This document shows, piece after piece, positions 2,480-35,906 of a DNA stretch of 35,906 nucleotides; within the stretch, counting starts at the first letter, position 1, and the number at the start of each line of letters is the position of its first letter. The notes below the pieces were generated by a model that made no database searches, was not told the origin of the DNA, and worked only from the letters and a program-made list of their open reading frames with translations. Both the position numbers and the translations under genes were made by a program. The stretch comes from Candidatus Methylomirabilota bacterium (GTDB lineage Bacteria; Methylomirabilota; Methylomirabilia; Rokubacteriales; CSP1-6). Location: the NCBI GenBank assembly GCA_035936835.1, contig DASYVT010000047.1, forward strand, positions 1 to 35,906, written 5' to 3'.

Positions 2480-3468
<989 letters not shown>

Positions 3469-13873: not shown

Positions 13874-13895
13874 TGTGTTTCGGCACGCTGCGTCT

Positions 13896-13925
13896 CGAAT
13901 ACAGCGGAAACGAACGGCGAGTCAA
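13896..13925 (-). promoter_or_regulatory. Possible promoter for the wecB operon
   Basis: On the minus strand TTGACT (13925-13920) and TATTCG (13901-13896) are spaced by 18 bases. The -35 is good and the -10 partial. Transcription would begin about 15 bases before the wecB start codon. Confidence 0.35.
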
Positions 13926-13952
13926 GGCCTAAATCCTCGCCGCAGATCGCCC

Positions 13953-13981
13953 TTGACACCGCCTGGAGCCGGTCTTAGAGT
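13953..13981 (+). promoter_or_regulatory. Likely sigma-70 promoter for the molybdenum hydroxylase genes
   Basis: A perfect -35 TTGACA (13953-13958), a 17-base spacer and TAGAGT (13976-13981; 4 of 6 matches) lie 65 bases before the iron-sulfur subunit gene. It is divergent from the wecB promoter, within the 173-base gap. Confidence 0.55.
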
Positions 13982-14046
13982 CACGCACACTTCTCCCCAG
14001 CCTTCGCACGGGGTCAACGCCGATCCACAGCGGAAGGAGCGGGCAC

Positions 14047-14499
14047 ATGGCCAAGCTGCTCATCAACGGCAAGTCCCGAACCGTCGACGTCCCACCTGAT
14101 ACGCCGCTGCTCTGGGTGATCCGGGAACACCTCAAGCTCACCGGCACGAAGTTCGGCTGCGGCATGGCGCAGTGCGGCGCGTGTACCGTGCACCTCGACG
14201 GCACCGCGGTGCGCTCGTGCCAGACGCCCGTCTCGACGGCCGAGGGCAAGAAGATCACGACGATCGAAGGACTGCACCCCGAGGGCAAGCACCCGCTGCA
14301 GCTCGCCTGGATCGCCGAGCAGGTGCCGCAGTGCGGGTACTGCCAGTCGGGGCAGATCATGCAGGCGGCCTCGCTCCTGGCGAAGAACCCCAAGCCGACC
14401 GACGACGAGATTGTGGCGGCCATGTCGGGCAACATCTGCCGTTGCGCCACGTACGTGCGCATCAAGCGCGCGATCAAGCGCGCCGCGCAGGGGGCATAG
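14047..14499 (+). CDS. (2Fe-2S) subunit of a two-component molybdenum hydroxylase (IorA/CoxS-like)
   Basis: A 150-residue electron-transfer subunit with both clusters of the xanthine dehydrogenase family. The plant-ferredoxin-type cluster has Cys38, Cys43, Cys46 and Cys58. The C-terminal helical-domain cluster has Cys96, Cys99, Cys131 and Cys133 in the order C-x2-C ... C-x-C. GGAAGGAG precedes ATG 14047. It is followed two bases after its stop by the large molybdopterin subunit, with no FAD subunit gene. This is the layout of isoquinoline 1-oxidoreductase and related periplasmic aldehyde oxidases, where electrons leave to a cytochrome or other carrier. Confidence 0.95.
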
Positions 14500-14501
14500 C
14501 C

Positions 14502-16682
14502 ATGACCACCGAGCTGAACCGCCGGGACTTTCTGAAGACCAGCGCCGCGACGGGAGTGGGCATGACCCTCTGGTTCACCTTCGGCGACGGCCTGGGTCTC
14601 GCATCGGGAGCGTCGGCGTTCGAGCCGAACGCGTCGATGACGATCAGGCCGGACGGGCTGGTCACCGTCCACATCACCAAGGCCGAGATGGGGCAGGGCG
14701 TCGGGACCGCGCTCGCGCAGATCGTCGCCGAGGAGCTCGAGGCGGACTGGAAGGACATCCGCGTCGACTACCCGACCAGCGACCCGAAGTACGGCCTGAT
14801 GATCACGGGCGGGAGCTGGAGCGTCAACTGGACGTTCGACACGCTCTCGCGCGCGGGCGCCGCGGCGCGCATGGCGCTGGTGGACGCGGCCGCGCAGTAC
14901 TGGAAGGCTCCGGCAGAGGAGTGCGCGGCGTCGCGCAGCGTGGTGCGCCACCTCCCCACCGGGCGCTCGATCTCCTACGGCGACATCGTCGCCAAGGCGC
15001 CGATCACGAAGAAGTTCTCCGAGGACGACCTGAAGAAGATCACGCTCAAGAAGCCGAGCGAGTACAGGGTCGTCGGCCAGTGGACGCAGCGCCTCGACAT
15101 TCCGGAGAAGACGAACGGCCGGGCGAAGTTCGGCATCGACGCGTTCGTCGCAAACATGGTCTACGCCAAGACCGCCTACCCGCCGACGCGGGAGGGCGGC
15201 AAGCACACCGCCGTCGACGACTCACAGGCCAGGAAGGTGAAGGGCTGGGTCAAGACCATCGTCAACGACCAGCTCGTAGCCGTCGTCGCGACCTCCTACG
15301 AGTCGGCGGTGAAGGCGCGCGACGCGCTCAAGATCACCTGGGCCCCGGGGCCGAACACCGGGGTCAGCACCGAGTCGATCTTCAGGGACTTCGCCGCGAA
15401 GGCCAAGGATGGCGCGGGCGCCATCGAGTGGAGCAAGGCCGGCGACGTCAAGGCGGGTCTCGCCGGCGCCGCGCGCGTGTACGAGGCGACGTACACGACT
15501 GACTACGTTGCCCACATGCAGCTCGAGCCCATGAACTGCGTCGCGCGGTTCGAGGGCGGCGTCTACGATCTCTACACCGGCAGCCAGTTCCAGACGCTGG
15601 CCATGGGCACGCTGGCCGCCGTGCTCAAGACGGATCAGAAGAACATCCGGATCCACCAGCACTACCTGGGGGGCGGCTTCGGCCGGCGTCTCGACGCCGA
15701 CATCATCCTCGAGGCGGCGATCATCGCGCGCGAGGCGGGACGGCCGGTCAAGCTGATCCGCTCGCGCGAGGAGGACCTCCGCCGCGACTTCTATCGCTCC
15801 GCGACACTCCAGACGCTCCGCGGGGGCCTCGACGCCTCGGGCAAGATCACCGCGTGGGACAACGTCATCGTCGCCTCGCATCCTGGGACCCGCTGGGGCC
15901 CGGACTTCGTCAACAAGCAGGGGCTCGACGACTTCGCTCTCAACGGGGCCGACCACGTGTACTCGATCCCCAACCAGTCCGTTCGCGCGATCCGCACCGA
16001 GACCGGCATCTCCGTCGGCTATGTGCGCGCCGTCGCGCCGAATTACACGTTCTTCGCCGTCGAGACGTTCATCGACGAGCTGGCGAGCCTGTCGAAGACC
16101 GACCCGCTGGCCTTCCGCCTGTCGATGCTGGGGGACCAGCCGCGCCTGGCCAACGTGCTCCGGATCGCCGCCCAGCGCGCCGGCTGGGGCACCCCGCTGC
16201 CGCCGAACGTTGGCCGCGGGCTCGCGTGTGTCTCAGCGCAGGAGAAGAAGACGCCGACCTGGACGGCGTCGGTCGTGCAGGCGCGCGTGGATCCGGCGAC
16301 GGGCAGGGTGCGCGTCGAGAAGATCATCTGCGCGGTGGACTGCGGCATCGTCGTGAACCCGGACGGCGTCCGGTCCCAGGTCGAGGGCTCGCTCCTCTTC
16401 GGCCTAAGCAACGCGCTCAAAGAACGCGGCACCGTCGCCAACGGCGCCCTCGTCCAGAGCAACTTCCACGATTACCAGGTCCTCCGCATGAACGAGGTGC
16501 CCGACGTCGTCGAGGTGAACGTAGTGCAGAGCGCGGAGTACCCAACCGGCGTCGGCGAGCCCGGCGTGACGACCATCGCGCCCGCGCTCTCCAACGCGAT
16601 CTTCGCCGCGACGGGGGCGCGCGTTCGCAGCGTGCCGCTCCTGCCCGAGCGCGTGCTGAAGGCGATCAGCGACAAGGCGTAG
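14502..16682 (+). CDS. Molybdopterin-binding subunit of a periplasmic molybdenum hydroxylase (IorB-like)
   Basis: A 726-residue subunit. Its N-terminus carries a twin-arginine signal (NRRDFLK, residues 6-12, then a hydrophobic run to about residue 38), so the folded complex is exported with its cofactor. Molybdopterin-binding regions include EMGQGVGTALAQIVAEEL, HYLGGGFGRRLDADI, the SVGYVRAVAPN loop and the C-terminal GVGEPGVT, where Glu686 is the expected catalytic base. It hydroxylates an aldehyde or N-heterocycle; the substrate is unknown. It starts at ATG 14502, two bases after the small-subunit stop, and ends 13 bases before a strong hairpin. The family is often annotated as isoquinoline 1-oxidoreductase beta subunit, which should not be read as substrate evidence. 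Confidence 0.93.
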   Translation: MTTELNRRDFLKTSAATGVGMTLWFTFGDGLGLASGASAFEPNASMTIRPDGLVTVHITKAEMGQGVGTALAQIVAEELEADWKDIRVDYPTSDPKYGLMITGGSWSVNWTFDTLSRAGAAARMALVDAAAQYWKAPAEECAASRSVVRHLPTGRSISYGDIVAKAPITKKFSEDDLKKITLKKPSEYRVVGQWTQRLDIPEKTNGRAKFGIDAFVANMVYAKTAYPPTREGGKHTAVDDSQARKVKGWVKTIVNDQLVAVVATSYESAVKARDALKITWAPGPNTGVSTESIFRDFAAKAKDGAGAIEWSKAGDVKAGLAGAARVYEATYTTDYVAHMQLEPMNCVARFEGGVYDLYTGSQFQTLAMGTLAAVLKTDQKNIRIHQHYLGGGFGRRLDADIILEAAIIAREAGRPVKLIRSREEDLRRDFYRSATLQTLRGGLDASGKITAWDNVIVASHPGTRWGPDFVNKQGLDDFALNGADHVYSIPNQSVRAIRTETGISVGYVRAVAPNYTFFAVETFIDELASLSKTDPLAFRLSMLGDQPRLANVLRIAAQRAGWGTPLPPNVGRGLACVSAQEKKTPTWTASVVQARVDPATGRVRVEKIICAVDCGIVVNPDGVRSQVEGSLLFGLSNALKERGTVANGALVQSNFHDYQVLRMNEVPDVVEVNVVQSAEYPTGVGEPGVTTIAPALSNAIFAATGARVRSVPLLPERVLKAISDKA

Positions 16683-27417: not shown

Positions 27418-28497
27418 ATGAGCACGATGAAGGCGGAGCCGATCGCCGGACCCGAGGCGTGGCTGGGCGCCGACATGGCGCGATCCACGGAATGGATCGG
27501 GACCGTGTCCGCCCGGGCGGTCGCCGAGCTGGATGCGGCGCTCCGCGGCCTCGAGCGCCGCGGCCTCGCCTGGCCGCGCTTCGGCTGCGACGACTTCCCG
27601 CTGCCGACGTTCTCGCGCGAGCTGGGGAGCGTCCTCGATGAGCTGGAGCGTGGGCGCGGCTTCGTGCTCCTGCGCGGCATTCCCGTCGGCCGCTACGCGC
27701 CGGACGAGCTGAAGAACCTCTACTGGGGCCTCGGCGCCCACCTGGGCCGCGCCCGCTACCAGAACGCGCAGGGCGAGCTGATCGGCGAGGTGCGGGACGA
27801 GAATCGGCTCTATGGACAGGTCCGCGAGGTGTCGATGGACTCAGCGCTCGGCCGCTCCTCGCGCTCGAAGGCGCGGTCGGCCGGGCCGCTGCGCTTCCAC
27901 ACCGACCGCTGCGACCTCGTGAGCCTCCTGTGCGTGCGCACGGCACGCGCCGGCGGTTTGAGCCGGATCGTGAGCGCGGTGAGCGTGGCCAACGCGATCC
28001 TCGCCCGGCGGCCCGACCTCCACGCCCTTCTCTGGCAGGACTACTGGCGGAGCCGCCAGGGCGAGGAGGACGGCGGCGAGCGCCAGACCTACGCGCTGCC
28101 GCTCTTCGCGATGCACCAGGGCAAGTTCACCACGCAGTACTCGCGGACGTTCGTGGAGGCCGCGCAGAAGCTGCCCGGCGTCCCGCGCCTGAGCGCGGCC
28201 CAGGAGGAGGCGCTCGACTTGCACGCCGAGGTGTGCGAAGAATTGGCCTTCACCATGGAGCTCGAGCCCGGCGACCTCCAGCTTCTCAACAACCACGTCA
28301 TCTACCATGGGCGCACGGCGTATGAAGACGCGAACGGCCCGGACGGCGACCGGCTCTTGCTGCGCCTCTGGCTCGCGCCGCTCAACAGCCGCGCGCTGCC
28401 GCCGGGCTTCGAGACGCTCTGGGGCACGACGGTGGCGGGCGCGCCCCGCGGCGGCATCGCCCAGCCCGTGCCCGCTCAGAAGGAGACATGTTCATGA
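27418..28497 (+). CDS. TauD/TfdA-family Fe(II)/2-oxoglutarate dioxygenase
   Basis: A 359-residue protein with the 2-His-1-Asp iron site: HTD at His161 and Asp163, and the distal His297 in VIYHGRTAY, followed by the 2-oxoglutarate-binding arginine in LLLRLWLA. A GFVLLRGIPVGRYAP strand near residue 80 is typical of the TauD group. AAAGGAG at 27405-27411 supports ATG 27418; GTG 27415 is an alternative one codon upstream. Its last ten bases overlap the start of the binding-protein gene. It oxidatively cleaves an unknown small substrate; sulfonates, nitriles or ether acids are possibilities in the family. Confidence 0.92.
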   Translation: MSTMKAEPIAGPEAWLGADMARSTEWIGTVSARAVAELDAALRGLERRGLAWPRFGCDDFPLPTFSRELGSVLDELERGRGFVLLRGIPVGRYAPDELKNLYWGLGAHLGRARYQNAQGELIGEVRDENRLYGQVREVSMDSALGRSSRSKARSAGPLRFHTDRCDLVSLLCVRTARAGGLSRIVSAVSVANAILARRPDLHALLWQDYWRSRQGEEDGGERQTYALPLFAMHQGKFTTQYSRTFVEAAQKLPGVPRLSAAQEEALDLHAEVCEELAFTMELEPGDLQLLNNHVIYHGRTAYEDANGPDGDRLLLRLWLAPLNSRALPPGFETLWGTTVAGAPRGGIAQPVPAQKETCS

Positions 28498-30032
28498 CCT
28501 ATCGACGCGCGCTTGTCCTGATCCTCGTCACCCTCGTGCTCGTCCTCGCCGTTGCGCCCGGGAGGGGACTCGCCGCTCCCGAAGGCCAGCTCATCTGGGG
28601 CGTGCACGTCTCGCTGGCCCCGACCTGGTTCGAGCCCGCCGAGACCCCTGGCATGATCACACCCTTCATGGTGCTCTACGCGCTGCACGACGCCATGGTG
28701 AAGCCCATGCCCGGCCAGCCCACGGCGCCGAGCCTGGCCGAGTCGTGGTCCGTTTCGAAGGACGGCCTCGTCTACGAATTCGTCCTCCGCAAAGGGGCGC
28801 GATTCCACAACGGCGACCCCGTCACCGCCGAGGACGTGAAGTTCTCCTTCGAGCGCTACCGCGGCAGCTCCAACAAGATGCTAAAGGAACGGGTGGTCGC
28901 CGTGGAGGCGCCCGATCCCGTGCGAGTCCGCTTCCGTCTGAGGCAACCGTGGCCCGACTTCCTGACCTTCTATACGAACGCCACGGGTGCGGGCTGGATC
29001 GTGCCGAAGAAATACGTCGAGAAGGTGGGCGACGAGGGCTTCAAGAAAGCGCCGGTAGGCGCGGGGCCCTACAAGTTCGTGTCGTTCACCCCCGGGGTCG
29101 AGCTGGTCCTCGAGGCCTTCGACCAGTACTGGCGGAAGTCCCCCAGCGTGAAGCGCCTGGTCTTCCGTGTCATCTCCGACGAGTCCACCCGGCTGGCCGC
29201 GCTCAAGCGCGGTGAGGTGGACATCGTCTACTCCGTGCGCGGCGAGCTGGCCGAAGAGCTGCAGCGGACGGCAGGTCTCACCCTCAAGCCCGCAGTCATC
29301 CAGGGCACGTTCTGGCTCTACTTCCCCGACCAGTGGGATCCCAAGTCGCCGTGGTACGATCGCCGGGTCCGGCTGGCCGCGAGCCTGGCCATGGATCGTC
29401 CAACCATCAACCAGGCGCTGACCCTCGGGTATTCCAAGCTCACCGGCAGCATCATCCCCAGCTCGTTCGACTTTTTCTGGCAGCCGCCGGCTCCCGTCTA
29501 TGGCGCGGCCCGAGCCAAGCAGCTCCTCGCGGAGGCCGGTTACCCCAGCGGCTTCGATGCCGGCGACTACTACTGTGACGCCTCCTACTCCAATCTGGCC
29601 GAAGCTGTCGGCAACAATCTCCAGGCGGCGGGGATTCGCGTGAGGCTCCGCCCGCTCGAGCGGGCGGCGTTCTTCAGCGCGTACTCCGAGAAGAAGCTCA
29701 AGAACATCATCCAGGGATCGAGCGGGGCGTTCGGCAACACCGCCACGCGCCTCGAGGCCTTCGGCGTTACAGGAGGGGCCTACGCCTACGGCGGATACCC
29801 GGACATCGACGGACTGTTCCAGGAGCAGGCGGCCGAGCTGGACCGGAAGCGCCGCGAGGCGACCCTGCACAAGATCCAGCAGCTCGTTCACGACAAGGTC
29901 ATGTACGCGCCCATCTGGGAGCTGGCCTTCCTGAACGGCGTGGGGCCGCGCGTCCAGGAGTCGGGCCTCGGCCTCATCTCCGGCCACGCCTACTCGGCGC
30001 CCTACGAGGACGTCACGCTCAAGGCGAAGTAG
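28488..30032 (+). CDS. Family-5 extracellular solute-binding protein (orphan)
   Basis: A 514-residue secreted or periplasmic protein with an N-terminal signal (MFMTYRR, hydrophobic core to about residue 22, cleavage near GLAA). The SBP family-5 motifs VLRKGARFHNGDPVTAEDVKFSFERYR, AGPYKFVSF and AASLAMDRPTINQAL are at normal positions, and the C-terminus is complete. No permease or ATPase genes follow. Instead, 12 bases after its stop there is an inverted permease tail and then repeat A. It overlaps the dioxygenase gene by ten bases, implying that the imported substrate is the dioxygenase substrate or a related compound. Confidence 0.93.
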   Translation: MFMTYRRALVLILVTLVLVLAVAPGRGLAAPEGQLIWGVHVSLAPTWFEPAETPGMITPFMVLYALHDAMVKPMPGQPTAPSLAESWSVSKDGLVYEFVLRKGARFHNGDPVTAEDVKFSFERYRGSSNKMLKERVVAVEAPDPVRVRFRLRQPWPDFLTFYTNATGAGWIVPKKYVEKVGDEGFKKAPVGAGPYKFVSFTPGVELVLEAFDQYWRKSPSVKRLVFRVISDESTRLAALKRGEVDIVYSVRGELAEELQRTAGLTLKPAVIQGTFWLYFPDQWDPKSPWYDRRVRLAASLAMDRPTINQALTLGYSKLTGSIIPSSFDFFWQPPAPVYGAARAKQLLAEAGYPSGFDAGDYYCDASYSNLAEAVGNNLQAAGIRVRLRPLERAAFFSAYSEKKLKNIIQGSSGAFGNTATRLEAFGVTGGAYAYGGYPDIDGLFQEQAAELDRKRREATLHKIQQLVHDKVMYAPIWELAFLNGVGPRVQESGLGLISGHAYSAPYEDVTLKAK

Positions 30033-30044
30033 GCCGCGAGCCGC

Positions 30045-30098
30045 TCAGCCCTGGCGGCGGAGCTTCGGATCCCAGGCGTCGCGCAGCGTGTCGCCGAA
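30045..30098 (-). pseudogene. C-terminal fragment of a DppC-like ABC permease
   Basis: Seventeen codons plus stop read FGDTLRDAWDPKLRRQG, matching the closing tail of DppC-like permeases (the importer permease here ends GDWLRDTFDPKLRQL). The fragment stops exactly where repeat A begins; the rest of the gene is absent. Confidence 0.65.
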
Positions 30099-30285
30099 GC
30101 GCGTAGGCGACACGAAGGCCATGATCAGACCGGCCGGGGCCGGCGAGCACCGACGGCGGGGTAGCTGGCGCCGAGAGCACCGCGCGGAGCGCATCGATGA
30201 TCCCCCGGCCGGGCCAGTCATCAACTGCGATCTTGCGCCGGCGACCGCGAGGCAGTCAAGACGCGTCCTGCAGGGGCAGAGTCCA
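30098..30285. repeat. 188-bp dispersed repeat, copy A
   Basis: It aligns over its full length with 31632-31820 at about 88% identity by hand (roughly 22 mismatches and one single-base gap). Both copies begin AGCGCGTAGGCGA and end with a TCCA. Its left edge cuts a permease gene and its right edge cuts a dienelactone hydrolase gene at a codon boundary. A pair of GC-rich arms inside (CCGGCCGGGG and CCCCGGCCGG) could pair. The second copy adjoins an IS91-like transposase remnant, so this may be a solo end or a non-autonomous derivative of such an element. Confidence 0.8.
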
Positions 30286-30405
30286 GATGACGACCACGCC
30301 CGGATACGGGCCGCCTCCAAACGGACGCGCCAGGTACGCGTCGATCTGATCGCCCTGGTGCCCGCGCATGTACACCGTTTCGGCAAGGAGCGCTTCGTAG
30401 GCCAT
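30286..30405 (-). pseudogene. N-terminal fragment of a dienelactone hydrolase-family protein
   Basis: Forty codons from ATG 30405, with GAGGAGG upstream, read MAYEALLAETVYMRGHQGDQ and continue to YPGVVVI, the N-terminal strand pattern of dienelactone hydrolases. The reading ends exactly at the repeat A boundary; the catalytic Cys/Asp/His part is missing. Remaining bases 30406-30524 hold the untranslated leader of this fragment and the gap before the cyclase gene, with no feature I can support. Confidence 0.65.
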
Positions 30406-30524
30406 GGCCGTCCTCCTCTACGACTTTTTCCGGTGCCGCATGATACTCGAAGATGACCGTACGCTTGGCTGTCAAGACGTGGCAAGGTTGGAAGCGCCTC
30501 CGACACCCCACCAGGGAGGACCTG

Positions 30525-31502
30525 ATGACCACTCGCCCCGCCGTCACCCCCGCGCTCCTCGAGGAATACTGCACGCGGTTTCGCAACTGGGGTCGCTGGG
30601 GTGCCGAAGACGAGATCGGGACGCTGAACTTCATCACGCCCGAGGTCATCAAGCGGGCGGGCCGCCTCGTGCGACAGGGCAAGGTCATCTCCTGCGCCCT
30701 CAACTTCGACACGAACGGCCCGCAGACCGGCGCCTTCGGCCGGGTGAACCCGATCCACAGCATGGTGGCCACGGGCACGGACCACGCGACGGGCCGGCAG
30801 AAGCTGGCGGGCTTCGACACGCTGCCATTCGGCTGGGGCTTCGCCGACGACCAGATCACCATGTTCCTGCAGTGCGGGACGCAGTGGGACGGGCTCGGCC
30901 ACATCTTCCACAATGGCAAGATGTACGGCGGGCGCGATGCGAGCCTGGTGTCGTCCACCGGCGCGGCGCGTAACGGCATCGAGCACTACAAGGACAAGAT
31001 CGTCTCCCGCGGTGTCCTCCTCGACATCGCGCGGTTCAAGGGCGTGGACGCGCTCCGGCCGGGCGAGCCGATCTACACCGAAGACCTGGATGCGTGCGCG
31101 GCCAGTGAGCGCGTCACGATTGAAGCCGGTGACATCGTGCTGATCAGGACGGGGGACGTGGGCCGAAGAGTCCGGGAGCGGAGCTGGGGGACCTTCTCGG
31201 CCGGCGACGCCGCGGGCCTCTCATTTCTCACCGCCCCGTGGCTCCACGAGAAATCCGTCGCGGGAATCGCCACCGACACCTGGGGGGCTGAGGTCCGGCC
31301 CAACGAGTTGGCCGGCGCCTTCCAGCCTCTCCACCTCGTAATCATCGTGAACATGGGGCTGCTCGTCGGGGAGATCTTCGACCTCGAGGCGCTCGGCGCC
31401 GACTGCGCGGCGGACGGCGTCTACGAGTTCATGTTCGTGGCCCCGCCGTTGCCCATCACCCGCGCGGTGGGCTCCCCGATCAATCCCCAGGCCATCAAGT
31501 AG
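30525..31502 (+). CDS. Cyclase-family hydrolase (kynurenine formamidase-like)
   Basis: A 325-residue protein of the metal-dependent cyclase/formamidase family. Characteristic runs are WGRWGAEDEIGTLNFITPEVI near the N-terminus, QCGTQWDGLGHIFHNGKMYGG (about residues 113-133) in place of the classical HxGTHxD metal motif, and GDIVLIRTGDVGRR. The C-terminal VYEFMFVAPPLPITRAVGSP is typical of the large subfamily. GGGAGGACC supports ATG 30525 over the frame start at 30453. It is intact although flanked on both sides by repeats A and B. The LLM gene fragment begins two bases after its stop. The substrate is unknown. Confidence 0.9.
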   Translation: MTTRPAVTPALLEEYCTRFRNWGRWGAEDEIGTLNFITPEVIKRAGRLVRQGKVISCALNFDTNGPQTGAFGRVNPIHSMVATGTDHATGRQKLAGFDTLPFGWGFADDQITMFLQCGTQWDGLGHIFHNGKMYGGRDASLVSSTGAARNGIEHYKDKIVSRGVLLDIARFKGVDALRPGEPIYTEDLDACAASERVTIEAGDIVLIRTGDVGRRVRERSWGTFSAGDAAGLSFLTAPWLHEKSVAGIATDTWGAEVRPNELAGAFQPLHLVIIVNMGLLVGEIFDLEALGADCAADGVYEFMFVAPPLPITRAVGSPINPQAIK

Positions 31503-31504
31503 CG

Positions 31505-31633
31505 ATGGGCTTCGGGACCTACTATTTCTTGCAGGCGGCGCCGGGGATGACCCACGCCGAGGTCATCCACCGTGAGCTCGACGAGATGCAGTGGACGGAG
31601 GAGCTGGGCTTCGACGAGGTCTGGCTGACCGAG
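31505..31633 (+). pseudogene. Truncated LLM-class flavin-dependent oxidoreductase
   Basis: Forty-three codons from ATG 31505 encode the family N-terminus, including a MTHAEVIHRELDEMQWTEEL and GFDEVWLTE segment. In intact members WLTE is followed by a conserved HHF-type motif, absent here because repeat B begins at 31632. The lost part includes the flavin and F420 barrel. It was presumably co-transcribed with the cyclase gene. Confidence 0.75.
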
Positions 31634-31820
31634 CGCGTAGGCGAGATAAAGGCCATTCTCAGACCGGGCCGGGGCCGGCGGACACCGACGGCGGGGTGGC
31701 GGGCGCCGAGAGAACCGCGCGTCGCGCATCGGTGATCCCCCAGCCGGGCCAGTCAGCAGCTACGAGCTTGCGCCGGCGAGCGCGGGGCAGTCAAGACGCG
31801 TCCTGCCGGGGCAGCGTCCA
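31632..31820. repeat. 189-bp dispersed repeat, copy B
   Basis: This is the partner of copy A in the same orientation, with near-identical ends. Its left edge truncates the LLM gene. On its right, 18 bases beyond the repeat, lies the stop codon of the IS91-like transposase remnant read from the minus strand. It is therefore in the position of the 3' non-coding end of that element. Confidence 0.8.
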
Positions 31821-31838: not shown

Positions 31839-31997
31839 TTACTGATGGGAGGGGGCGGCAGCGCGCAGGGCGGCCGACGGCGGGGCCGGCCCCGGAGAGT
31901 CCGCCGGGTGGAGCAGGCCCAGGGGCGCGAGGATCGTGCCCACCACGGCCGGGGCCTCCAGCGTGGCGATGCGCCGCACCCGGCGGTGCGGCTTGGC
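31839..31997 (-). pseudogene. C-terminal remnant of an IS91-like transposase
   Basis: Fifty-two codons plus TAA read, in part, VRRIATLEAPAVVGTILAPL and then a Pro/Ala-rich tail. This resembles the closing segment of Y2-type IS91-family transposases, where a hydrophobic IxxPAVVxxIL motif precedes a short proline-rich end. Upstream it is cut exactly at the stop codon of the serine hydrolase gene. The zinc-finger and catalytic tyrosine parts are missing. The family assignment rests on remembered C-terminal patterns. Confidence 0.5.
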
Positions 31998-34574
31998 CTA
32001 AAACTCTTGCGACTTGCCGCGCGCGCGCGTGAGCTTCACGACGCCGAAGCGGTCGTGCACGTGCAGCGTGAACGTCTCGGCCTCGCGATAGACGCGATAG
32101 CACCGCTTGCGCCCGCCGTCCGTGACGTTCCACGTGCGGCAGTAGAGTCCCTCGGGGGTGATGCGCCATCGGCCGATGTCGAAGCCGGATCCCAACGTGG
32201 AGTACACGATGCCGTCGGGAGCGATGTAGAGCCGCAACCCGCCGACCCTGAACGTGTTGCCCGGAAGCTCGCCGTGGAGCTCGGTGGCGGTCAGCGGTGG
32301 TTGCTGAATTGCCTTCGGGGCCGCGCCGGGCGGCGGCGACGTACAGAAGGGACGAATCGCCTCACCCGCGAGGATCATCGAGTCGACGTCGTAGTTGTGG
32401 CCGTCGCTGAAACGGAAGGCGGAGACGCCGTTCGGGAGCAGCGCGACGAGATTGCCGCCGTATCCGGCCATGTACGGGATCTGGAAGAAGCAGCCGAGAT
32501 CGGTGCGATACGGCACCGACCAGAACGACAGGTGGTACCGCTGTTCGCCGAATAGGTTGCTCCGGAGTGTCGGGAGACCCGTCGCCCGCGTTCGGTACAG
32601 GGCTTCGGCAAGCTTCGTCGCGCTCAGGATCTGCTGCCCATCGTGCCGGCCGCCGTTCTGGAGGAGCGTTGTCAGCTTCGCGATGTCGTCGACGGTCGGA
32701 TAGAGCCCGTACCCGAGCAGCGGAATCCCGCGACTCCCGTCACTCTCGCGCGTGTGCATCGTCGGCAAGTGCAAGATCCCGATTGGCCGAAAGACCTCGT
32801 CGACGACCATGTCCCAGAGATGCGCGTTCGGCCCCGCCTTCTGCTTGAGAAACGCGTCCATCGCCGCCGCGAGCACGAACGTGACCGTCGAGTTGTAGCG
32901 GACGACTTCGCCGCGCGCCCACGGATACTTCCCGTACGAGAATCCACGGTCGAGCTTCGCCTGCGCCGTGGGCGCCAATACCCACTCGATCATCTTCGGC
33001 TTGTTCTCGTCGGGTTCAGGATCCAGCCAGTCACGCTGCGGTCCGTTGTCTCCGATCGGCGCAGCCATGCTGAGCGCGTCCGCGAACGTGACGTCGTTCC
33101 ATCCATCGTGCGTGGCTGTCACCTTCACGTGGTCCGCGATCTTCAGGTCGAACACGCCGTCACCGTACTTCTGCGCGAGGCGCAGCAGCGCGACGCCGGC
33201 GCCGAGGGATTTCGTGACGGAGAACACCCCGTGGCGCATGTGACGGCAATACGGATACGGACCGGAGCGCGTGGTACAGCTCTTCACGTAGACGGTGCCG
33301 TCGATCACGAGGCCGTTGGCGCTGATGTCTTCGGGGGCGGCATCGCCGTCGAACGCGTCGAGCCGCGAGTCGCGCGCGGACACGGGCAACGACGCCCACG
33401 GCTTTATCGGAGCTTCGAGTCGCCGCTCGGTCTCGAACTCGGCGCGCAACGCCACCTCCTCGGCGATGGCGCCCGGGGTGTAGGTCATCGGTCCCTGGGC
33501 CCAGAAGTCGTCTCGCGCCCACTCCTTGGTTTCCTGGGTGAATTGGACCCTGAGATGCGACACGCGCGTGTCGTCGAAGAGGAACGTGGCGAGACCGTTG
33601 TGTGTGCCGTTCGTGATCCGATCGACGACCACGAACGGGAAGGAGGCGCGCGACATGCCCCGATCGCCCGGCTCGGACCACACGCGCCCCGGGGACACGA
33701 TGAACGCCAGCGGCAGCTGCGCCGTGGCGCCCGGCGACGACATGATCGTCCGTACGACCGGGACCAGATGATCGCCGTGCGTGAAGAACGCCGCGCTGAA
33801 CCCGGGGCCGGGAGTTGGAAGACCGGCGCAGCCCTTGTGCGCGCTGAACGATCGGCCGGCGCCGACCGTGAGCGTCCCCCGCAGCGAATGTCGGGCGGGC
33901 GCCGGGGGACCCACCGGCATGAAGTAGTCGTTGTGCACGGGACCGTCGCCCACGTATCGCGAGGCGAACAAATCGTCGGCGGTGACGCGGTCGCGTGGGC
34001 CTCCCACCGGTGGAGGCGAGAGGTCGGCGAGGAGCGGCGGGCATCCGACCTGGCTCACGTCCATCACGCGGGTGAGCGTCACGCGGCCTTCCGTCGGGCC
34101 CCTCTTGAACACTCCCGCAAGTCCGCCGTCGGCGAAGCGATAGGTCAGGTCAGGCTTCTCGACGGTCGGAAGCTGGAAGCGAAGCACGCCGTCGACGATC
34201 CGGCCCGACGCGCGCCAGGAGCGAGGTTGCCAAGCCGCCCACGGTTCGTGGGTGCCGAGGCTGTAGATCACACGGGCGAAGCCGTTCGGAAAGACTTCCT
34301 CGACGACGAGCGTGTGGCACTGCGCGTCCGCGCCGGTGCGATCCTTCCAGGCGCCGTTCCACGCGCCGGAGAACCGTGAGACATCGGGCGGGACGTTCGG
34401 AGACGGCGGGACAATCCGCGTATCGGCCGGCAGGAGCGTCTCCTGGCGGCACCCCTTCGCGTCGGCCGGGCTCACGGTGAGCGCGAGCACGGCGGCGAGC
34501 AGGAGGCCGCCTCGGAGACGCCTGGGCGCGTAGATGGGATGAAGCGGCTGGCCTCTCGCTTGACGTGGTGGCAT
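31998..34574 (-). CDS. Secreted multidomain serine hydrolase (class C beta-lactamase/DD-peptidase fold)
   Basis: From ATG 34574 it is 858 residues. A signal-like segment (RRLRGGLLLAAVLALTV, then ADA) lies near residues 18-39, preceded by an unusually long N-terminus. Residues about 45-150 form a WNGAWKDR...VVEEVFPNGFARVIYSLG domain. The serine hydrolase domain holds Ser452-x-x-Lys455 (SVTK) and Tyr560-Asn-Ser. A final Cys-containing domain (about 770-858; GRWRITPEGLYCRTW) resembles small secreted accessory domains. No reliable third KTG-type motif could be placed. GC is nearer 62% in a sampled line, below most neighbours. The start codon is three bases from the putative IS110 edge, so the original 5' end may have been altered. 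Confidence 0.85.
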   Translation of the reverse strand: MPPRQARGQPLHPIYAPRRLRGGLLLAAVLALTVSPADAKGCRQETLLPADTRIVPPSPNVPPDVSRFSGAWNGAWKDRTGADAQCHTLVVEEVFPNGFARVIYSLGTHEPWAAWQPRSWRASGRIVDGVLRFQLPTVEKPDLTYRFADGGLAGVFKRGPTEGRVTLTRVMDVSQVGCPPLLADLSPPPVGGPRDRVTADDLFASRYVGDGPVHNDYFMPVGPPAPARHSLRGTLTVGAGRSFSAHKGCAGLPTPGPGFSAAFFTHGDHLVPVVRTIMSSPGATAQLPLAFIVSPGRVWSEPGDRGMSRASFPFVVVDRITNGTHNGLATFLFDDTRVSHLRVQFTQETKEWARDDFWAQGPMTYTPGAIAEEVALRAEFETERRLEAPIKPWASLPVSARDSRLDAFDGDAAPEDISANGLVIDGTVYVKSCTTRSGPYPYCRHMRHGVFSVTKSLGAGVALLRLAQKYGDGVFDLKIADHVKVTATHDGWNDVTFADALSMAAPIGDNGPQRDWLDPEPDENKPKMIEWVLAPTAQAKLDRGFSYGKYPWARGEVVRYNSTVTFVLAAAMDAFLKQKAGPNAHLWDMVVDEVFRPIGILHLPTMHTRESDGSRGIPLLGYGLYPTVDDIAKLTTLLQNGGRHDGQQILSATKLAEALYRTRATGLPTLRSNLFGEQRYHLSFWSVPYRTDLGCFFQIPYMAGYGGNLVALLPNGVSAFRFSDGHNYDVDSMILAGEAIRPFCTSPPPGAAPKAIQQPPLTATELHGELPGNTFRVGGLRLYIAPDGIVYSTLGSGFDIGRWRITPEGLYCRTWNVTDGGRKRCYRVYREAETFTLHVHDRFGVVKLTRARGKSQEF

Positions 34575-34630
34575 AGACTGCCCCACAAGAGCACCCCGCG
34601 GTCAACGCCGCAAGAAGGGAGAGGCCAGCC
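34546..34630. repeat. 12-bp inverted repeat spanning the transposase leader
   Basis: GGCTGGCCTCTC at 34546-34557 is perfectly complementary to GAGAGGCCAGCC at 34619-34630, which ends at the base before the transposase ATG. The 61 bases between hold a smaller bulged hairpin (GTGG/GGCA with TGCC/CCAC, about 34565-34586). The outer stem would mask the transposase start in transcripts entering from outside. Confidence 0.7.
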
Positions 34631-35677
34631 ATGGACCATATTGGCATCGACGTCCACAAGAGGGACAGCCAGATTTACATCCTCGCCGAGGGGGGTGAGA
34701 TCATCGAGCAGCGGATCCGCACCGAGGGCGAGCGCTTCGCCGCCGTGCTCGGGGCCCGGCCCCGCGCCCGGCTGCTGATCGAGGCCTCGACCGACAGCGA
34801 ATGGGTCGCCCGGTGTCTCGAGGCCCTCGGCCACGAGGTCATCGTCGCCGACCCGAACTTCGCCCCCATGTATGCGACGCGGTCGCGCAAGGTGAAGACC
34901 GACCGGCGCGATGCCCGGGCCCTGGCCGAGGCCTGCCTGCTCGGCGCCTACCGCCCCGCCCATCGCCTCTCCGATCCCCAGCGCCACGTGCGAGGCCGGT
35001 TGGGGGTGCGGGACGCCCTGGTCCACACGCGCACGCGCTACATCTCGGTCATCCGGGCCCTGCTCCGTCAGCACGGCTACGGCGTGCCCTCCGGCAGTGC
35101 GGAGCGTTTTACCGACCGCGTTCGGGGCCTGCCCCTGCCGGGCCGCTTGCGCTCGGTGGTCGCGCCGCTGCTCGCCGTCATGGGTCCCCTCAACCAGCAG
35201 CTCGCGTACTCGGACGCGACGATCGAGCACCTCGCCGTCCAGGATCCCCGCGTGCCGCGGTTGCGGTCCGTCCCCGGCGTCGGCCCCGTCACCGCGGCCG
35301 CCTTCCTCGCTGCGGTCGACGACGCCCAGCGCTTCCACCACGCGCATCAGCTCGAAGCCTATCTCGGCCTCGTGCCCCGCGAGTACAGCTCGGGCGAGAC
35401 GCAGCGCCGCGGCCCGATCACCAAGGCCGGGCACTCGCGCCCCCGCTGGCTGCTCATTCAAGCCGCACGCTCGATCCTGCGCTGTCGGCCCCCCGCGGCC
35501 GAGGCGCTCTGGACCTGGGCCCTGCGCATCGCCACGCGCCGGGGCAAGCACATCGCCGTCGTCGCGCTGGCCCGCCGCCTGGCCGGCATTCTCTATGCGC
35601 TCCTTCGGGATGGGACGGTGTATGCGCCCCGCCCCACGCGACATCATCCGGACCCGGTCGCCGCGCTGCACGCGTGA
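34631..35677 (+). CDS. IS110/IS1111-family transposase (RuvC-like DEDD)
   Basis: A 348-residue recombinase. The N-terminal DEDD domain begins IGIDVHKRDSQIYI, with Asp7 as the first catalytic acid, continues with LLIEAS (Glu), and has KVKTDRRDARALAEAC for the last two acids. The C-terminal Tnp_20 domain has the VPGVGPVTAAAFLAAV helix-hairpin-helix-like motif and EYSSGETQRRGPITKAGH, where a serine acts in strand exchange. GAAGGGAGAG lies upstream of ATG 34631 and overlaps the inverted repeat. The gene looks intact, so the element may be active. Such transposases use an element-encoded RNA to choose targets. Confidence 0.92.
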   Translation: MDHIGIDVHKRDSQIYILAEGGEIIEQRIRTEGERFAAVLGARPRARLLIEASTDSEWVARCLEALGHEVIVADPNFAPMYATRSRKVKTDRRDARALAEACLLGAYRPAHRLSDPQRHVRGRLGVRDALVHTRTRYISVIRALLRQHGYGVPSGSAERFTDRVRGLPLPGRLRSVVAPLLAVMGPLNQQLAYSDATIEHLAVQDPRVPRLRSVPGVGPVTAAAFLAAVDDAQRFHHAHQLEAYLGLVPREYSSGETQRRGPITKAGHSRPRWLLIQAARSILRCRPPAAEALWTWALRIATRRGKHIAVVALARRLAGILYALLRDGTVYAPRPTRHHPDPVAALHA

Positions 35678-35722
35678 GGGCCGATGGGACTGACTGAACG
35701 GTGATGGTGTGGTGAGCCTCGT

Positions 35723-35889
35723 GGTCTCTCGCAGGTTCGACGGGTGGGTGAGCGCGAATGTTGAAGTGGCCGCTGTTGCAGGGCCGCAGGATAGATGGCG
35801 CCCCCACCCTTCGAATCCCCCTATGCGCCGGCGAGTGCCCCTCGCCCTTGACGAGCGCGAATACAAGGCTGACGGAACCTCGCGAGACC
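35723..35889 (+). ncRNA. Candidate bridge/seek RNA of the IS110/IS1111 element
   Basis: About 170 bases downstream of the transposase gene are closed by a long imperfect stem: 35723-35737 pairs with 35876-35889 (13 pairs of about 15, one mismatch, one bulge). Inside lies a perfect 6-bp hairpin (35830-35835 with 35841-35846, loop TGCCC) and a 5-bp stem GGCGC/GCGCC around a 24-base pyrimidine-rich loop near 35796-35829. No ORF is credible here. Position and architecture fit the 3' guide RNA of IS1111-type elements. Guide-target complementarity is not demonstrated. The rest of 35678-35906 shows only a 10-bp direct repeat GAGCGCGAAT (35750-35759, 35853-35862). Confidence 0.4.
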
Positions 35890-35906
35890 AGAGCCCACTG
35901 CCCCAT

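Follow-up and report, generated by a model that had tools for sequence, protein, structure and literature searches.

Within a 35,906-nucleotide stretch of a Candidatus Rokubacteria genome, hereafter the window, genes break off at the edges of two similar repeats of 188 and 189 bp, raising the question of what these repeats are and how they came to lie between severed genes. We identify both copies (A and B; Table 1) as pieces of an IS91-family element of Candidatus Rokubacteria: each is its last ~190 bp on the 3' (ori) side, present in the window as a remnant without an intact transposase gene. An earlier sequence-only reading of the stretch had described the two copies as aligning end to end at about 88% identity, which we confirmed (188/189 nt aligned, 88% identity). 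When the source genome (4.1 Mb, 236 contigs) was searched with A, 12 matches were obtained (E-values between 1e-99 and 6e-5), which lie in the window and on four further contigs. Chance similarity is excluded because B matched A with an E-value of 3e-62 in this genome-wide search and ten more matches, full or partial, were present in the same genome. G023 and G024, sister genomes from the same genus, contain further copies of the repeat.

Table 1 Coordinates of the repeat copies, the severed genes and associated features; positions are those of the window unless a locus is named.
Feature	Position	Strand	Remark
Copy A, solo 3' (ori-side) end of an IS91-family element	30098..30285	-	outer terminus 30098-30101
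Copy B, same 3' terminal region as A	31632..31820	-	joined to transposase tail
Conserved outer terminus of A, GCGTAGGCGACACGAAGGCCATGATC	30101..30126	+	
Conserved outer terminus of B, GCGTAGGCGAGATAAAGGCCATTCTC	31635..31660	+	
Oligopeptide-permease gene, 3' fragment	30045..30097	-	last 17 codons, cut at A's outer end
Dienelactone-hydrolase-like gene, 5' fragment	30286..30416	-	first ~43 codons, cut at A's inner edge
Luciferase-like monooxygenase gene, 5' fragment	31505..31631	+	first ~43 codons, cut at B's outer end
C-terminal tail of IS91-type transposase (...KPHRRVRRIATLEAPAVVGTILAPLGLL...SHQ stop)	31839..31997	-	last ~50 codons
GCGCGTAG, left half of a further IS91 3' end	34526..34533	+	right half on contig C77, L013 140 onward
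IS110-family element, in split IS91 end	34534..35906	+	transposase 34631-35677; runs to contig edge
Candidate outward promoters, sigma-70-like, strong	L052 about 1000-1050; L163 about 3260-3295		

The suggestion of a rolling-circle element of IS91 type, with the repeat as its 3' end, was borne out by full-length relatives in the sister genomes. In G024, a transposase ORF occupies L093 14417–16633 on the minus strand, with homology over 14495–15898, and in G023 the transposase (L097 1337–2809, minus strand) matched PF14319 (Zn_Tnp_IS91; 1.2e-19) and PF04986 (Y2_Tnp; 5.1e-21). In these two full copies the 5' start is the same, GTCGTGTATCCATCTCTGGGCATTGCC, and precedes the transposase by a few dozen bases, and the 3' terminus, also common to both, is not an inverted repeat of that start; the region homologous to A and B lies downstream of the transposase stop codon and ends in ...GGCCTTTATGTCGCCTATGC or close variants. 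The L097 copy carries a 9-nt insertion. On contig C155 of G024, a ~310-bp insert with AATG at both junctions lies in the 3' end of the otherwise full-length L093 copy (13889–14231) and is possibly another small mobile element. In the window's own genome, a 503-aa transposase on contig C190 matches both Zn_Tnp_IS91 and Y2_Tnp, and the window retains only a C-terminal transposase tail, outside these two domains. This tail, which adjoins B as the sequence-only reading had stated, begins directly after the stop codon of a beta-lactamase-family gene and shares 58% identity over 38 aa with residues 462–499 of the C190 transposase; three copies on contig C77 are likewise followed, on their inner side, by the C-terminal end of a minus-strand IS91-type transposase. 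By its transposase domains, its fixed non-inverted ends and the ori-side region downstream of the transposase, the element is a member of the IS91 family. A segment of C77 (3368–4019) considered as a 652-bp element with 29-bp inverted repeats was rejected: the full copies have a different 5' end, and the apparent repeat is not a true inverted repeat because its second member is the oppositely oriented end of another subfamily. Almost all named relatives belong to Candidatus Rokubacteria (Rokuibacteriota), along with two Acidobacteria MAGs, and our literature search found no report of IS91 in Rokubacteria. The kind of element is already known; what is worth noting is the many end-only copies lying in one direction.

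The sharp edges shared by A and B had been taken as the mark of a discrete element, an interpretation that held for the outer edge, which recurs next to unrelated flanks, and failed for the inner one. The outer edge (30098/31632) alone marks a true limit of the element. It is the same in most copies despite their different flanks, and in the window the terminus reads GCGTAGGCGACA..AAGGCC on the plus strand. A degenerate version of this end motif occurred ~100 times in 25 of the 57 family genomes, compared with about 2 occurrences of a reversed-pattern control, and the source genome held 16 matches to the motif versus only 5 to Y2_Tnp. The search for relatives that the earlier reading had suggested did succeed: this edge recurs in numerous copies, and complete transposase genes adjoin some of them. 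Among the bases adjoining the terminus, only a C was constant, as judged by eye, and no IS801-like tetranucleotide target was found in the flanks next to it. Members of the IS91 family insert beside a specific tetranucleotide of the GAAC/CAAG type and do not duplicate the target.

Three of the four flanks are severed genes, in agreement with the earlier description, and encode parts of a permease, a dienelactone-hydrolase-like protein and a luciferase-like protein. An intact homologue of the permease gene is located on contig C77 (L013 8688–9590; BPD_transp_1 and OppC_N domains). The dienelactone-hydrolase-like fragment is cut where its homologue in genome G025, a 281-aa ORF (L121 1399–2244), goes on with ...IIHHMPGWD. 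The luciferase-like fragment gave a weak match to Bac_luciferase, and homologous genes of the sister genomes align with it up to 31634.

On the inner side, B has no edge at 31820, and its homology with other copies runs on to about 31984. Window positions 27496–30284 are collinear with contig C115 of G024 (L090 12000–9127; 91–94%), where a copy adjoins exactly the same base of the permease gene as A does, with the same flank, CGTGTCGCCGAAGC, and reaches ~230 bp further inward, into the transposase tail. Since this orthologue is longer at the same target base, the inner edge of A at 30285 is a truncation point, and the common insertion point indicates that A is an old insertion whose inner part differs between the two genomes. 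The insertion of A predates the separation from G024, and a later deletion probably produced the present inner edge of A. We therefore rejected a free-standing 188-bp element in the window, given the inward continuation of B and the longer orthologue of A; A is nevertheless a solo form, as had been suggested, in that it is an end without a transposase.

A and B are 5'-truncated IS91-family copies, and we consider it probable that one-ended rolling-circle transposition best explains the family as a whole. By analogy with IS91 and IS801, the shared segment would be the 3' terminal region that holds the origin of rolling-circle transfer. A transposase acting in trans would start at this ori end, and transfer would often stop short of or beyond the normal 5' terminus, producing end-only copies or copies of the end plus host DNA, with later deletions also reshaping the inner edges. 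Across the family, end-only copies outnumber transposases; the inner edges of the copies lie anywhere between ~30 nt from the fixed outer end and full length, and A and ~20 relatives have an intact right end and lack the left end. Contig C199 of the source genome carries a pair of copies of another subfamily's end (L165 11334–11637 and 14176–14481; 94% over ~305 nt), both running from the outer end past the 3' region into the same host fragments, the 3' end of an amidohydrolase-like gene and the start of the next gene. The combination of an end with host DNA fits transfer that started at the ori end and stopped at the wrong place, and is as might be expected from one-ended capture of host DNA. 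For IS801, right-end fragments of 229, 360 and 679 nt have been trapped experimentally as one-ended products, as have insertions of the IS plus adjacent DNA, although the same study attributes the majority of genomic IS801 fragments to rearrangement and not to one-ended transposition (PMC3189936).

Later rearrangement is the main rival of one-ended transposition in our data too, or a contributor to it. It holds that full IS91 copies inserted normally, that the end-only copies are remnants of deletion and inter-copy recombination, and that their single direction reflects recombination or target preference. We regard such decay as quite possible, if somewhat short of an even chance. It is consistent with the common insertion point and different inner edges of A and its G024 orthologue and with the unrelated genes flanking the copies on their two sides. 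When the flanks of 14 solos were joined and compared with five genomes of the genus, no uninterrupted match was found; because no empty site spanned these solos, clean insertion of solo units is not supported, as decay would have it. Transposase-side fragments at L100, L102 and L094 have their junctions at, or close to, one shared position but continue into differing 3' regions, a pattern that recombination between subfamilies would produce. Against decay, nearly all copies found retain the outer end and have lost the transposase side, a bias that is partly a selection effect of searching by ends, and decay in place would not make the C199 pair, with its end joined to the same host DNA twice.

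It is unlikely, in our judgement, that the 3' region of ~185–200 bp is a discrete non-autonomous unit with a fixed inner end, a solo-origin miniature element mobilised in trans. Seven of 20 family-1 copies do stop within a 15-nt interval that contains the edge of A, at or near GGACTCTGCCCC, and simulation gave P = 0.0002 for such a cluster under uniform edges and 0.02 with repeated values removed, although the edges were compiled by hand from the alignments that had suggested the cluster, several of the shorter ones by eye. Three of these seven, A and copies on G023 contig C176 and G024 contig C155, agree within 1 nt at their inner edges in different flanks, and several solos of a second subfamily (family 2) share an inner edge at ...TGAGCGG. 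GGAC, one of the target-like tetranucleotides with which the inner ends of IS801-type miniatures begin (GAAC, GGAC, CAAG or CGAC), stands at the inner edge of the C155 copy (C155a) and one base inside the edges of A and the C176 copy (C176a); the other solos lack it there. With an inner stop that recurs in several independent copies, the discrete-unit idea survives in a weakened form, but the common edge could be a recombination hot spot, A has a longer orthologue at the same target base, and the 14 solos yielded no empty site for units of this kind. The window's own remnants, A and B, may still be open to mobilisation in trans. Chance similarity, a structured RNA or sequence native to the flanking genes is exceedingly improbable, for although GC-rich DNA gives many weak repeats in this same window, the best E-values and the many copies with unrelated flanks speak against chance, the Rfam search gave no match and the consensus fold was almost without covariation (only one pair with a compensatory change), and the repeat was absent from the permease, dienelactone-hydrolase-like and luciferase-like homologues that we compared.

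The ends in the window very probably belong to a longer series. The last 64 bases of the window are identical to the first 64 of contig C77, and a copy of an IS110-family element bridges the two contigs. Because its two flanks are the halves of another IS91 end, C77 very likely comes next after the window in the genome. The presumed chain then comprises A, B, C77c, C77a, C77b and C77d, all in one orientation and with genes between them. Over the genomes examined, ends that neighbour each other within 10 kb pointed the same way in 16 of the 18 pairs of one list and in 19 of 25 in a wider list (P = 0.015, the pairs not being independent). A ~95-bp piece of the junction between a solute-binding-protein gene and a permease gene is duplicated at both flanks of the chain (30009–30099 and L013 8652–8742; 92% identical), and the right copy is closer to the left copy of G024 (96%) than to that of the window. 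At two other loci (L160 4199 and L163 2982–3087), IS91 ends of different subfamilies are nested directly in the same orientation, the older end being cut 30–105 nt from its outer end. The one-direction modules also suggested an integron attC-like cassette array, which is disfavoured: the ends lie at transposase tails and, by eye, lack a GTTRRRY core.

The IS110-family element at the contig junction continues on C77 (L013 1–139) and has subterminal inverted repeats, GATGAAGCGGC. We compared its copies at the window locus (34534–35906 plus L013 1–139) and at L056, L091, L203–L206 and L208–L214. The insertion point lies in the core of IS91 3' ends, GCGTAG^NCRACAT; most left ends are flanked by the IS91 end motif or a one-base variant of it, and the other half of the IS91 end follows the right ends, in several Rokubacteria genera. 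The IS110-family element is a site-specific parasite of IS91 ends, and no report of an IS110-family element with this target was found in our literature search.

A candidate outward promoter, TTGACG-N17/18-TAGCAT, was found in the 3' regions of two related IS91 subfamilies (shuffle p < 0.004). The candidate is weaker in A (p = 0.04) and B (p = 0.18), and the motif was not significant in most of the other copies examined. Outward promoters in the ori region have been proven for ISCR1 (PMC6218425); in the window copies, they may be taken as a lead only. On contig C155 of G024, a tRNA-like gene lacks its 5' half, and its remaining 3' half (CAGTCGGAGGTTCGAGCCCTCCACGGCCCACCA; L093 4235–4270) lies directly against a solo IS91 end; ARAGORN found no complete tRNA around this solo. 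In a broader model, the ~190-bp IS91 origin of these Rokubacteria would have become an independent unit, mobilised in trans, that tends to stop at one inner point and inserts repeatedly in one orientation. It would form head-to-tail chains of origins and captured gene modules (A, B and the C77 copies being one of them), and outward promoters might drive the gene that follows; we consider this model doubtful.

The end-only copies resemble those of IS801, an IS91-family element of Pseudomonas syringae, in keeping the right (ori) end and losing the rest, and in that some also carry neighbouring host DNA (PMC3189936). They differ from IS801 in host phylum and sequence; the inner ends of IS801 start with a target-like tetranucleotide, whereas only part of the Rokubacteria copies have GGAC at the inner edge, and in Rokubacteria the end-only copies are abundant and mostly head-to-tail, unlike in IS801. 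With IS91 the element shares a transposase with zinc-binding and Y2_Tnp domains, and with IS91 and ISCR an ori region of ~200 bp downstream of the transposase, possibly with outward promoters there (PMC6218425 for ISCR1). Unlike in IS91 and ISCR, no GTTC/CTTG-like target was seen; the comparison is one of overall anatomy. Arrays and truncation are also features of Helitrons. These eukaryotic elements are alike in their rolling-circle logic and host gene capture (PMC4778049), whereas the Rokubacteria element is bacterial and without a helicase domain.

Our findings describe an IS91-type rolling-circle element that shapes the genome of a little-studied, uncultured bacterial lineage, and its copies are natural examples of the end-only forms seen in the IS801 trap experiments. 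The IS110-family element at IS91 ends adds another example of a mobile element that exploits the termini of a different one. If the chain model is true, these arrays would be a natural counterpart of the proposed gathering of resistance genes by ISCR elements, acting on ordinary metabolic genes.
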